In this document: positions 364 through 12,829 of the stretch, piece after piece
Layout of the letters: each line of letters starts with the position of its first letter
How positions within the stretch are numbered: position 1 is the stretch's first letter
From: a bacterium
Lineage (GTDB): Bacteria; CSSED10-310; JAJRTK01
DNA length: 13,242 nucleotides
NCBI GenBank assembly: GCA_024278345.1
Contig: JAJRTK010000536.1
Location: 1 to 13,242 of the forward strand
Direction of reading: 5' to 3'
Notes under the pieces: model-generated
The model's database searches: none
Seen by the model: only the letters and a program-made list of their open reading frames with translations
What the model was told of the DNA's origin: nothing
Translations under genes and position numbers: made by a program

Positions 364-1098
364 TCAGAGCACCCATTCCTCTAGGACTGGGACATCGGTT
401 CTTTCGCACAGTTTGAGCATCTCTTTCAGGATGGCGAGTTGGAGCGCCTCGTCGTTGGGCGCGCCCAGCGGGTAACCCAGCGGGTAGGGGACGGTGAGGG
501 CCCGGGAAGGCCCCACTTTCACGGTGATCTCCGGGAGCATCGTCAGCGATGCGGTGACGATTCCGCGGCTTTCCAGTTCTTCTTGAATCAAGGCGACCGC
601 CTGATGGCACAAGGGTCAGACGGGGACCAGGAGGGCGAGATCCACCTGGTCCTCCAGAAGCATTTCCGCGGCTTTGGGGGCCGTCCGTTTGACCAATCTG
701 CCAGGCGCGGTAATGGATCCCATGAACGAGAGGTGGCGCGGTGCGACGGATCCGATGTCGCCGTTGGCCCGGAGGGCGTGGAGCCTCTCCAGGGGAAAGG
801 CTAGATTTCCGTCCTTTTCGATACCGGCGTGATCGTAGGAATCGCTCCGGTGGGAATCCACCAGCGACTGGACATCGGCATCGGAAGGGATGATCCGGTA
901 AGAGTAGTCGCCGCCTTTGACGGTCTCGTCGAAGGGCGGGTCGCCGGGGAGGGCCAGGCCCGCCGTGGAAACCAAGGCGACGCGGCAGTCCGAGGCCGGT
1001 TTCTGGAGCCGCGTGGAGGAGACGGACTTGATCCGGCGCCAGGGGTAGACTTTGAGAGCCGTCCGAGTCCAGAGGGAAAGATCCTTCATGCTCGCCAT
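364..1098 (-). CDS. GrdB/PrdB-family selenoprotein (glycine/sarcosine/betaine/D-proline reductase type), in-frame UGA = Sec161
   Basis: This is a 244-residue protein when the in-frame TGA at 618-616 is read as selenocysteine. Family landmarks continue on both sides of the TGA: SH..S.SYDH near residues 82-90, FPLERL at 101-106, GSVAPRHLSFMG at 116-127, then VPV-U-PLCHQ with Sec161 and Cys164 (UxxC), then LTMLPEITVKVG. D-proline reductase PrdB (about 240 residues) has the same order and a U-x-x-C-H active site. The start ATG at 1098 is preceded by AGGAGG 4 nt upstream; the more upstream ATG at 1146 lacks such a site. In PrdB and GrdB the selenol attacks the substrate C-N bond, but no prdA, grdA, grdC or grdE partner is visible here, so the substrate is unknown. 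It is probably a cytoplasmic oxidoreductase, since I see no signal peptide. The gene ends at another UGA (366-364), which must act as stop. Reading the first TGA as a true stop would leave a 160-residue fragment without its catalytic residue. Confidence 0.88.
587..605 (-). promoter_or_regulatory. Bacterial SECIS element (selenocysteine insertion hairpin)
   Basis: Immediately 3' of the UGA (618-616), the mRNA folds as AUCA-GGC, loop GGUC, GCC-(bulged U)-UGAU. That is a 7-bp stem with one bulged U, read from 605 down to 587. The GGUC loop lies at +18 to +21 after the UGA. From memory, the E. coli fdhF SECIS also shows a GGUC apical loop about 19 nt after its UGA, with a bulged U in the upper stem; SelB recognises this loop. 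The bulge here is on the 3' side. Confidence 0.78.
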
Positions 1099-1262
1099 GC
1101 TGCCTCCTTGGGTTTTCATTCTTCCAGGTTTGTTGCTAAAACCCATTCCGCCCAGACCTTGCGGGAATTGTCAAATCGACGTTTCCCACCTGGTGGTCCA
1201 TCGCCCGAAACCTCTTTGATCGGTTCCGGGCGCTTTGCGCTTTTCTTCCGAAAGGACTACAC
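1099..1262. other. Divergent intergenic region (selenoprotein / DUF1499)
   Basis: These 164 bp must contain the promoters of both divergent genes. On the minus strand a perfect TTGACA (-35-like) lies at 1174-1169, but no good -10 hexamer follows at 16-19 bp (best CGGAAT), so no promoter is called. The plus strand carries a short palindrome CCACCTGGTGG near 1187-1197 that could be an operator; this is speculative. Confidence 0.4.
1103..1108 (-). promoter_or_regulatory. Ribosome binding site that fixes the selenoprotein start
   Basis: AGGAGG on the minus strand ends 4 nt before the ATG at 1098 and 13 nt before the next in-frame ATG at 1089. It favours 1098 over the ATG at 1146, which has no comparable motif. 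Confidence 0.65.
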
Positions 1263-10177: not shown

Positions 10178-10468
10178 GAGGCTACGACAATAGAACCCGA
10201 ACGGGCACCTGGTTTCACGCCCCGCACCGATGCGACAAACAGGCTCGGCGCGATCATTGGGCAGCTTGCGAATGCAGATAGGCACGGGCAAAATGCCATC
10301 ATCTCCAAAGCGACCGAGCCATTCCTCCTCTCCATCCGCTTGGAACTGGCAGTCTCCTCAGAAAAGGTCGCGTCATTGCCCGTAAAGTCGCCACAACCAG
10401 AATCCAACCGTTTGCGAATTGGCAAAAACATGAACGAGCTGAGACCGTGGAATCTCAAGGTGGGAATC
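10178..10468. other. Intergenic region between the SPFH pair and the LRR gene
   Basis: These 291 bp contain no supported gene. A minus-strand frame of 120 codons crosses the region and the start of the LRR gene but has no family features. A 5-bp dyad TTTGC-GAATTG-GCAAA around 10411-10426 might be an operator for the LRR gene; this is weak. No intrinsic terminator was found after the SPFH pair. Confidence 0.4.
10457..10463 (+). promoter_or_regulatory. Ribosome binding site that fixes the LRR protein start
   Basis: AAGGTGG lies 5 nt before the ATG at 10469. The same frame is open from 10340 without a comparable site, and a start at 10469 places an exported-protein leader at the N-terminus. Confidence 0.6.
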
Positions 10469-12829
10469 ATGAATGATCGATTGCGAAAGACTCGTTGGAT
10501 GTCGTGTTTGAACTCTGCCGGGCGGCTGCGAACCATGGGGAGACTTCTGTCGATGGGGCTGCTGGTTGGTTGCCTGCTCCTCGGTTCCGCAGCTTCCGCC
10601 GCTATTCCGACTACTGAGCGAAATGCCCTCGTTGATCTTTACAATTCCACCAGCGGGGCGGCGTGGGGAGACAACACCAACTGGCTGGGGGCGGCGGGGA
10701 GCGAGTGTAGCTGGTACGGAGTGACCTGTAACGGGGGGCAAACCAGCGTCACGAGTTTGCTGTTGCAAGGAAACAATTTGAGCGGGGAGATTCCCGTGAC
10801 GATTGGGAATCTCACCGGCCTAATTTTCCTCAACCTCAGTTCGAACCAGCTCGGTGGCAGTATCCCCCCGGAGCTGGGCAATCTTGGTAGCGTCAGATAC
10901 CTTTACCTCGGCTCGAACCAGCTCTGGGGTTCGATTCCCGTTGAATTGGGTATGCTTGGCAGCCTTATTGAACTCCGGCTCGATGTGAACCAACTTACGG
11001 GTTCAATCCCCGTTGCTCTGGGTGGTCTCGCCAGCCTTACCTATCTAAACCTCGATTCCAACCGGCTCAGCGGCAGTATCCCGGTTGAGCTGGGCAATCT
11101 GCCGGTCCTTGTTTTCCTTTTCCTGAAGGAGAACCAGCTCAGCGGGAGTATCCCGATCGAGCTGGGCAATCTCACCAACCTTGCCTATCTTGATCTCAGA
11201 GGCAACCAGCTCACGGGCAGTATCCCGGTCGAGCTCGGCAATCTTGCCAGCCTCAAGAATCTCAACGTGAGTATAAACCAGCTCAGCGGGAGTATCCCGA
11301 TCGAGCTCGGCAATCTTGCCAGCCTCAAGAATCTCAACGTGAGTATAAACCAGCTCAGCGGGAGTATCCCGATCGAGCTGGGCAATCTCACCAGTCTTAC
11401 CTATCTTGACCTCAGCGGCAACGTGCTCACGGGCAGTATCCCCGTCGAGCTGGGGAATCTCACCGGTCTTACCTATCTTGACCTCGGCTGGAACGTGCTC
11501 ACGGGCAGTATCCCCTTGGAGTTTGGAAATCTCACCAGCCTTACAAGCCTTGACCTCGAGCAAAACGAGCTCACGGGCAGTATTCCCGTGGAGTTTGGGA
11601 ATCTCACCAGTCTTACAAGGCTTGACCTCCGCTGGAATGGGCTCAGCGGCAGTATTCCCGCAGAACTGGGGAATCTCACCAGCCTTACCGGCCTCTACCT
11701 CGATGGCAACTGGCTTAGCAGCAGTATCCCCATTGCTCTGGGCGATCTCACCAGCCTCACCTACCTCCACCTCGCCGGCAACCAGCTCAGCGACAGTATT
11801 CCCGCAGAACTGGGGAATCTCACCAGCCTTACGGACCTCAGCCTCAGTTTAAACCAGCTCAGCGGGAGTCTCCCCGTTGAGCTGGGCAAGCTCACCAGTC
11901 TTACCAATCTTGACCTCAACGGCAACGTGCTCACGGGCAGCATCCCCGCTGCTTTGGGGAATCTCACCAGTCTTACCTATCTTGACCTCCGAATAAATCA
12001 GCTTAGCGGGAGTATCCCCGTTGAGCTGGGCGATTTGACCAATCTTGTCACTCTTTCTCTGAACTCGAACCAGTTCAGCGGGAGTCTCCCCGTTGAGCTG
12101 GGCAATCTGACCAATCTTGTCACTCTTTCTCTGGACTCGAACCAGTTCAGCGGCAGTCTCCCCGCTGAACTGGGCAATCTCGCCAACCTTACCAAGCTTT
12201 CTCTCAGCTCGAACCAGCTCAGCGGGAGTCTCCCCGTTGAGCTGGGCAATCTGACCAACTTGAGCGATGATAGCTCGGAGTTTCGCTGGAATGCTCTGTA
12301 CACGACCGACCCAAGCCTCAAAGCTTTTCTGGATGCGAAGCAGAAAGGCGGCAACTGGGAAGAGACCCAGACGATCACGCCGCTGAACCTGGTGGCCAAG
12401 CCGGCTTCGAAGACATCGGTGCTTGTCACCTGGACCCCCATTGCCTACACCGGAGAGAGCGGCGGTTATGAAGTGAAGTGGAGCAACGCCTCCGGTGGCG
12501 TATACTTCAAGTTCGGCATCACGATCGACAAGACGGCCTCTTCCATGGAAGTGACCGGTCTGACGGGTGGCGGCCCATTCTACTTCTTGGTTCGAACTGT
12601 CACGGAGCCTCATGCCAACAACGACAACAGGGTGACCAGCGAATGGAGCTCCGAGGTGAGCTCCGGCACGGCGCCTACGCTCCCCACCTTGCCGGAAACC
12701 GGGCGGTGGATGCTCGCGATGCTGCTGGTGCTTCTGGCGCTGTGGCGCCGCTGTTGGGGTCCGGAAAAAGTTGATAGGCTTCCACCGAAGGGGCTGGCCG
12801 CGGGTGGCGGAACAGTTCAAGGGTCGTGA
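10469..12829 (+). CDS. Exported leucine-rich-repeat protein with plant-type cap, FN3-like domain and C-terminal LPETG/IPTL-like anchor
   Basis: This 786-residue protein has a long-n-region signal peptide (hydrophobic core about 29-44, A-S-A near 44). Residues 47-95 form a plant-type LRRNT_2-like cap (ERNALVDLYNSTSGAAW...NWL...CSWYGVTC, with Cys80 and Cys87). About 21 repeats of 24 residues follow at about 96-600, with consensus NQLSGSIPxELGNLxxLxxLxL, the plant receptor-type LRR. A fibronectin III-like domain lies at about 635-733 (LVTWTP, YEVKWS, YFLVRTV). The end has PTLPTLPETG at 736-745, a hydrophobic stretch at about 746-759 and Arg760-Arg761, then about 25 more residues. It is probably a surface or periplasmic adhesion or recognition protein. 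The repeats are 72-bp DNA units, and at least two adjacent pairs are nearly identical. Downstream of the SPFH pair by 291 bp, it is probably transcribed independently. Confidence 0.9.
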   Translation: MNDRLRKTRWMSCLNSAGRLRTMGRLLSMGLLVGCLLLGSAASAAIPTTERNALVDLYNSTSGAAWGDNTNWLGAAGSECSWYGVTCNGGQTSVTSLLLQGNNLSGEIPVTIGNLTGLIFLNLSSNQLGGSIPPELGNLGSVRYLYLGSNQLWGSIPVELGMLGSLIELRLDVNQLTGSIPVALGGLASLTYLNLDSNRLSGSIPVELGNLPVLVFLFLKENQLSGSIPIELGNLTNLAYLDLRGNQLTGSIPVELGNLASLKNLNVSINQLSGSIPIELGNLASLKNLNVSINQLSGSIPIELGNLTSLTYLDLSGNVLTGSIPVELGNLTGLTYLDLGWNVLTGSIPLEFGNLTSLTSLDLEQNELTGSIPVEFGNLTSLTRLDLRWNGLSGSIPAELGNLTSLTGLYLDGNWLSSSIPIALGDLTSLTYLHLAGNQLSDSIPAELGNLTSLTDLSLSLNQLSGSLPVELGKLTSLTNLDLNGNVLTGSIPAALGNLTSLTYLDLRINQLSGSIPVELGDLTNLVTLSLNSNQFSGSLPVELGNLTNLVTLSLDSNQFSGSLPAELGNLANLTKLSLSSNQLSGSLPVELGNLTNLSDDSSEFRWNALYTTDPSLKAFLDAKQKGGNWEETQTITPLNLVAKPASKTSVLVTWTPIAYTGESGGYEVKWSNASGGVYFKFGITIDKTASSMEVTGLTGGGPFYFLVRTVTEPHANNDNRVTSEWSSEVSSGTAPTLPTLPETGRWMLAMLLVLLALWRRCWGPEKVDRLPPKGLAAGGGTVQGS
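11221..11364. repeat. Recent 72-bp tandem duplication in the LRR gene
   Basis: The blocks 11221-11292 and 11293-11364 differ at one base (CCCGGTC versus CCCGATC). They encode adjacent 24-residue LRRs that are identical except for one Val/Ile change, indicating a recent in-frame duplication. Confidence 0.92.
12040..12183. repeat. Second near-identical 72-bp LRR repeat pair
   Basis: Two consecutive units beginning CAATCTTGTCACTCTTTCTC, at 12040-12111 and 12112-12183, differ at few bases and encode adjacent LRRs containing NSNQFSGSLP and DSNQFSGSLP. Confidence 0.75.

Follow-up and report, generated by a model that had tools for sequence, protein, structure and literature searches.

The minus strand of the window (the whole stretch of DNA analysed, 13,242 nucleotides) very probably carries an intact selenoprotein gene in which an in-frame UGA is decoded as selenocysteine (Sec), and whose product, which falls in a clade apart from PrdB and GrdB, would act as a stand-alone redox enzyme (Table 1). 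Genes of this kind are already known from marine and soil microbes; 42 Sec-containing 'PrdB' sequences with a UXXC motif were catalogued in a 2005 survey of the Sargasso Sea (PMC1088965) and 235 Sec versus 110 Cys forms were assigned to pfam07355 in the 2008 GOS survey (PMC2398784), so that the novelty claimed in the original prediction was overstated. What is added here is that the branch to which the gene belongs, named UPxC after its motif, does not qualify as PrdB by the criteria applied, that no partner subunit was detected for it and that its SECIS element covaries.

Table 1. Features of the selenoprotein locus (coordinates in the window)
Feature	Position	Strand	Details
Selenoprotein gene, PrdB/GrdB-like	364..1098	minus	244 residues, Sec at 161, terminal TGA 366-364
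In-frame TGA, predicted to be read as selenocysteine (U161)	616..618	minus	Motif UPLC
Shine-Dalgarno AAGGAGG	1103..1109	minus	Read from sequence; 4 nt upstream of ATG 1098
Bacterial SECIS hairpin AUCAGGC-GGUC-GCC(U)UGAU	587..605	minus	Bulged U at 591; covariation in 83 distinct sequences
SECIS loop GGUC	595..598	minus	Invariant GU (positions 22-23 from T of TGA)

An open frame interrupted by a conserved TGA

As originally predicted, with the right coordinates, two minus-strand frames join across the TGA at 618-616 into one gene. The ORF list splits this gene into pieces of 176 and 82 residues, which is what a standard caller was expected to report, and it is therefore a clean example of how routine annotation would break a selenoprotein gene in two. 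On the minus strand there is a single internal TGA between the ATG at 1098 and the terminal TGA and, when it is translated as a residue, the context of position 161 reads LLVPV-U-PLCHQAV. Both halves have a coding-type composition (GC by codon position is 0.64/0.47/0.80 upstream of the TGA and 0.69/0.40/0.76 downstream), and differences from the nearest relatives are in excess at third codon positions on both sides of it. That the gene also ends in UGA, which would make the same codon serve as Sec and as stop, was correctly seen but is nothing unusual, as TGA is also the stop codon in 51 of the 83 relatives whose end can be read, a count made without L067 and one contig end. The locus appears to be an intact selenoprotein gene, apparently monocistronic.

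The TGA is conserved well beyond the window. Comparison of 60 genomes with the window's own genome produced matches in eight, with exactly one TGA in all but one of the matches listed. A scan of 84,980 species genomes, queried with a 3-row alignment (a single-protein query gave no matches and one of 8 rows proved too diverse), confirmed 138 relatives. The best 80 of these 138 were retained, and the window protein is 44-65% identical to them; the homologue L036/L037 is 63% identical. In an alignment of these with the earlier set, position 161, at which homologues were to be checked for U or C, is encoded by TGA in 86 of 87 loci. As L019 and L039 are identical, this amounts to 85 of 86 distinct genes, and the exception is a distant Cys form with TGC. 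The resulting Sec:Cys ratio is no unbiased census, since the scan relied on peptide patterns by which some forms may have been favoured. All 85 UPxC-type homologues examined besides the window have TGA at this codon, and they span at least ten phyla, the record names for relatives including Acidobacteriota, Verrucomicrobiota, Myxococcota, Planctomycetota and Gemmatimonadota, as well as Desulfobacterales, Nitrospirota, Latescibacterota, Poribacteria and Schekmanbacteria. Cys is found in two homologues on annotated plasmids of Roseomonas and Haematobacter, with the motif NCPVCHQ/NCPICHQ. Downstream of Sec, five residues (C164, E176, T182, R199 and G208) are invariant in 36 sequences.

Two of these relatives have peculiarities of their own. 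In the Verrucomicrobia homologue L067 (1437-2132), the codon equivalent to Cys164 is TGA as well (TGACCGATGTGAAAC). The motif would then be UPMU, in a form with two Sec residues, or else the sequence contains an error. On the Roseomonas plasmid (L116, 2911-5296), the gene next to the Cys form, arranged tail to tail with it, encodes the protein adenylyltransferase SelO.

The SECIS hairpin and the decoding machinery

The expected 7-bp hairpin with GGUC at +18 to +21 past the TGA is present, together with a bulged U on its 3' side that had gone unmentioned. Taken alone it is unremarkable: its energy is -6.6 kcal/mol, the 48-nt stretch has another structure as its MFE, the z of -0.41 is no better than shuffles, and an Rfam search of the window returned no SECIS or other relevant family. 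What makes it credible is family-wide covariation. With the T of TGA numbered 1, the family stem consists of seven pairs (14-32, 15-31, 16-30, 17-29, 18-28, 19-27 and 20-26) that enclose a 5-nt loop, without a bulge and at a fixed distance from the TGA. Loop bases 2 and 3 are GT in 86 of 86 sequences, an invariance to which protein constraint contributes because the GU lies within a Val codon. Across 83 distinct sequences, 96.7% of stem cells are paired, a share that drops to 17-40% if the 3' arm is displaced by 1-3 bases, and the observed pairing was not equalled in any of 2000 column shuffles. Among the variable column pairs of the 48-nt stretch, mutual information is highest for 19-27 (98% paired), followed by 15-31 (94%).

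Pair 19-27 is particularly telling, since it is formed in 81 of 83 sequences versus a mean of 49 and a maximum of 62 under a codon-constrained shuffle, in which codons at 25-27 were swapped only among sequences sharing that residue. The third base of the Gly codon tracks the first base of the opposing codon, GGT going with Thr (20/21), GGC with Ala (11/13) and GGA with Ser (17/19), in counts that, like the others for covariation, treat related sequences as independent, yet with residue and codon choices that recur across phyla. Elsewhere in the same homologue genes, GGC is the dominant Gly codon. Judging from these alignments, there is good evidence for selection acting on the RNA at this hairpin, and the covariation provides a precise SECIS model for the UPxC clade.

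The window departs from that model. It has an Ala codon, GCC, where all other sequences carry Gly, Ser or Cys, which results in a C-C at pair 20-26 that is unique among the 83, and the stem survives only if its three inner pairs slip by one base and the U at position 28 (coordinate 591) is bulged out, with GGUC as the loop. Compared with the family element, the SECIS of this gene is atypical and weaker, and it may be less efficient. The SECIS of E. coli fdhF, to which it had been likened, has a GGUC loop with GU about 20 nt past the UGA and one bulged U. This likeness holds for the loop and for the presence of a bulged U, but the window loop is one base nearer the UGA, the bulge is on the 3' strand, and the family consensus is an unbulged hairpin with a 5-nt loop.

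Most of the Sec machinery could be found in the host assembly (550 contigs, 87.9% complete), namely selA (478 bits), selB (273 bits, in a long open frame) and a tRNA-Sec, or selC (74.6 bits, anticodon TCA according to ARAGORN). These are the three genes whose absence was to count against a selenoprotein, an objection that therefore does not arise. The fourth gene that was to be looked for, selD, was not found in this 87.9%-complete assembly, where it has two matches, both below cut-off and with sequences resembling ThiL and HypE, and it has probably been lost in assembly gaps.

Taken together, TGA conservation in 85 of 86 distinct homologues, covariation of the hairpin and the presence of selA, selB and tRNA-Sec argue for a real selenoprotein gene, as had been proposed, and Sec decoding of the UGA at 618-616 is strongly supported by this comparative evidence. 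Against it stand the missing selD and the window's aberrant hairpin. That the gene is instead a pseudogene, or its TGA a sequencing or assembly error, with a truncated protein of 160 residues as the only product, is barely credible. The two ORFs given by a standard caller and a SECIS weaker than that of relatives would suit such a reading, which is refuted in substance by the occurrence of TGA at this position in 85 relatives, by third-position-biased divergence on both sides of it, by the covarying hairpin and by a genome equipped with Sec machinery. In the selenoprotein that we favour, SelB with Sec-tRNA(Sec) would bind the hairpin just 3' of the first UGA, leading to incorporation of selenocysteine, and the second UGA would terminate translation.

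Relationship to PrdB and GrdB

Two kinds of selenoprotein are recognised in this family in a 2026 review, D-proline reductase (TIGR04483) and GrdB (PF07355) (PMC13188914). The joined protein scores 30.2 bits on Pfam GRDB (PF07355), over the gathering cut-off of 22, and its best NCBIfam match is TIGR04483 (PrdB) with 140 bits (E 7e-41), under the equivalog cut-off of 300 that the control, PrdB of Peptoclostridium acidaminophilum, exceeds with 310 bits. On TIGR01918 and TIGR01917 it reaches 44.9 bits (cut-off 65.45) and 44.1 bits (cut-off 602), respectively, with its match confined to the second half, and a control GrdB-type protein scores 380 bits on TIGR01918. Membership of the GrdB/PrdB family, as first proposed, is therefore supported in the wide sense of GRDB, and it stops short of the PrdB cut-off.

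In a maximum-likelihood tree, PrdB and GrdB stand together and the UPxC genes and Cys forms lie across a 97/94 branch, the window sequence being in a 100/97 group with MAG sequences from Myxococcota, Nitrospirota, Schekmanbacteria and Pseudomonadota. The window gene is thus neither PrdB nor GrdB proper but part of a separate clade. It resembles PrdB in length (about 240 aa), in the UxxC at the aligned place and in sequence (33-36% identity), and differs from it in the motif, which is PVUPxCxQ in the UPxC branch and A/G-U/C-GTCHR in PrdB, and in having neither the prdA-prdB cluster nor a detectable PrdA partner. As for GrdB/GrdF/GrdH, their C-terminal half, with its UxxC, is homologous to the window protein, whereas GrdB is about 430 aa long, of which the window gene aligns to the second half alone, has UxxCxxC and adjoins a PF09338 gene.

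The lack of Grd/Prd partners nearby that had been noticed holds genome-wide for PF09338, the PrdA/GrdE-type subunit family, which was not found in the host genome (87.9% complete). The search is validated by positive controls in G043 and G055, where PF09338 genes were found near GrdB-type genes, and G055 carries both kinds, in that three GrdB-type genes have PF09338 genes close by and two genes of the UPxC type are located elsewhere. PF09338 was not found either in four genomes with UPxC-type genes only (G003, G046, G039 and G038). GrdA (PF04723) had no match in the host genome, but it had none in any control genome.

These results bear on whether the gene could, after all, encode a true D-proline reductase PrdB with a PrdA partner lying in the missing part of the genome. 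TIGR04483 being the best match, at 140 bits, and 12% of the genome being missing would be compatible with this, which is nevertheless highly improbable considering that (i) the score is under half of the cut-off, which genuine PrdB passes, (ii) the motif is not that of PrdB, (iii) the clade is separate in the tree, (iv) PF09338 is absent too from the four other UPxC carriers and (v) bona fide prdB is clustered with prdA, as seen in L124, L125 and L127. Two further prdB genes have escaped annotation, one on a Paraclostridium plasmid (L122, 4001-4603) with a Cys codon, TGT, and one with TGA at the Sec site (L126, 4001-4588) in a plasmid record that is almost without annotation.

A separate UPxC clade has implications for published names. 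The 'proline reductase PrdB' sequences of the Sargasso and GOS surveys share with it the Pfam family, the UxxC, an excess of Sec over Cys forms and a distribution in many environmental bacteria, and differ in that the surveys filed the family as proline reductase. We infer that they belong to the UPxC clade, and the name 'proline reductase' seems, from how this branch differs from PrdB and GrdB, to be wrong for it in marine surveys; if so, a common selenoenzyme of non-clostridial environmental bacteria has been misnamed. In a broader form, it is slightly more likely than not that the UPxC clade represents a selenoenzyme with a function of its own and no partner, which is found widely in Acidobacteriota, Verrucomicrobiota, Myxococcota, Planctomycetota, Gemmatimonadota and other groups, has no Cys forms in its core and has been called proline reductase in error for 20 years. 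The absence of Cys forms from the UPxC core, in the set examined, suggests a chemistry that needs selenium. A literature search found no function reported for this branch.

The predicted product and its genomic surroundings

The product would be an alpha/beta protein of 26 kDa in which U161 and C164 form the UxxC redox pair. In an AlphaFold model built from 36 sequences (pLDDT 95.7, pTM 0.93), these two residues are placed between a strand (154-158) and a helix (164-177), and such a predicted location at a helix start fits a redox pair. Searches of the PDB by sequence yielded no credible relative of the window protein, PrdB or GrdB, the few weak matches being unrelated molecules, and by fold Foldseek returned nothing below E 0.001. 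The best VIA-align match has a Z of 8.1 over 157 residues, a level that the tool calls common without true relationship, so no function is read from it. In a plausible redox cycle, U161 and C164 would form a selenenylsulfide, a general dithiol system would then regenerate the pair, and the protein might thereby function as a stand-alone thiol/selenol oxidoreductase, acting without PrdA, GrdE or GrdA.

It is possible, if unlikely, that the Sec protein serves instead as a redox subunit in a different enzyme, with a partner encoded at another locus. GrdB and PrdB, after all, both act in complexes (PMC13188914), and unlinked partners are compatible with the gene neighbourhood data. This is countered by the absence of any recurrent neighbour, since no Pfam family was found more than 5 times among the 56 downstream genes scanned or more than 3 times among the 53 upstream ones, in a set chosen by a simple ORF rule in which some genes may be wrong. 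The strand of genes next to UPxC genes is near random. DUF2064 (two downstream genes) and OsmC-like proteins (three) were considered as partners and judged too rare.

Two other features of the window and its genome deserve mention. The first, at 79-104, is a sequence of 26 bases that contains a perfect inverted repeat of 8 bp (CACCGGCA-TCT-TGCCGGTG) and has 237 copies in the genome at up to three mismatches, over 80 of them exact, and none in the reversed control; the copies are often near contig ends, some are repeated in tandem every 35 bases (C28), and one lies just downstream of selA. The second, on the plus strand at 10340-12829, encodes an 829-residue protein with plant-type leucine-rich repeats (NLTSLTxLxLxxNxLSGSIP), near the C-terminus of which PTLPETGRWMLAMLLVLLALWRRC looks like a C-terminal sorting signal.
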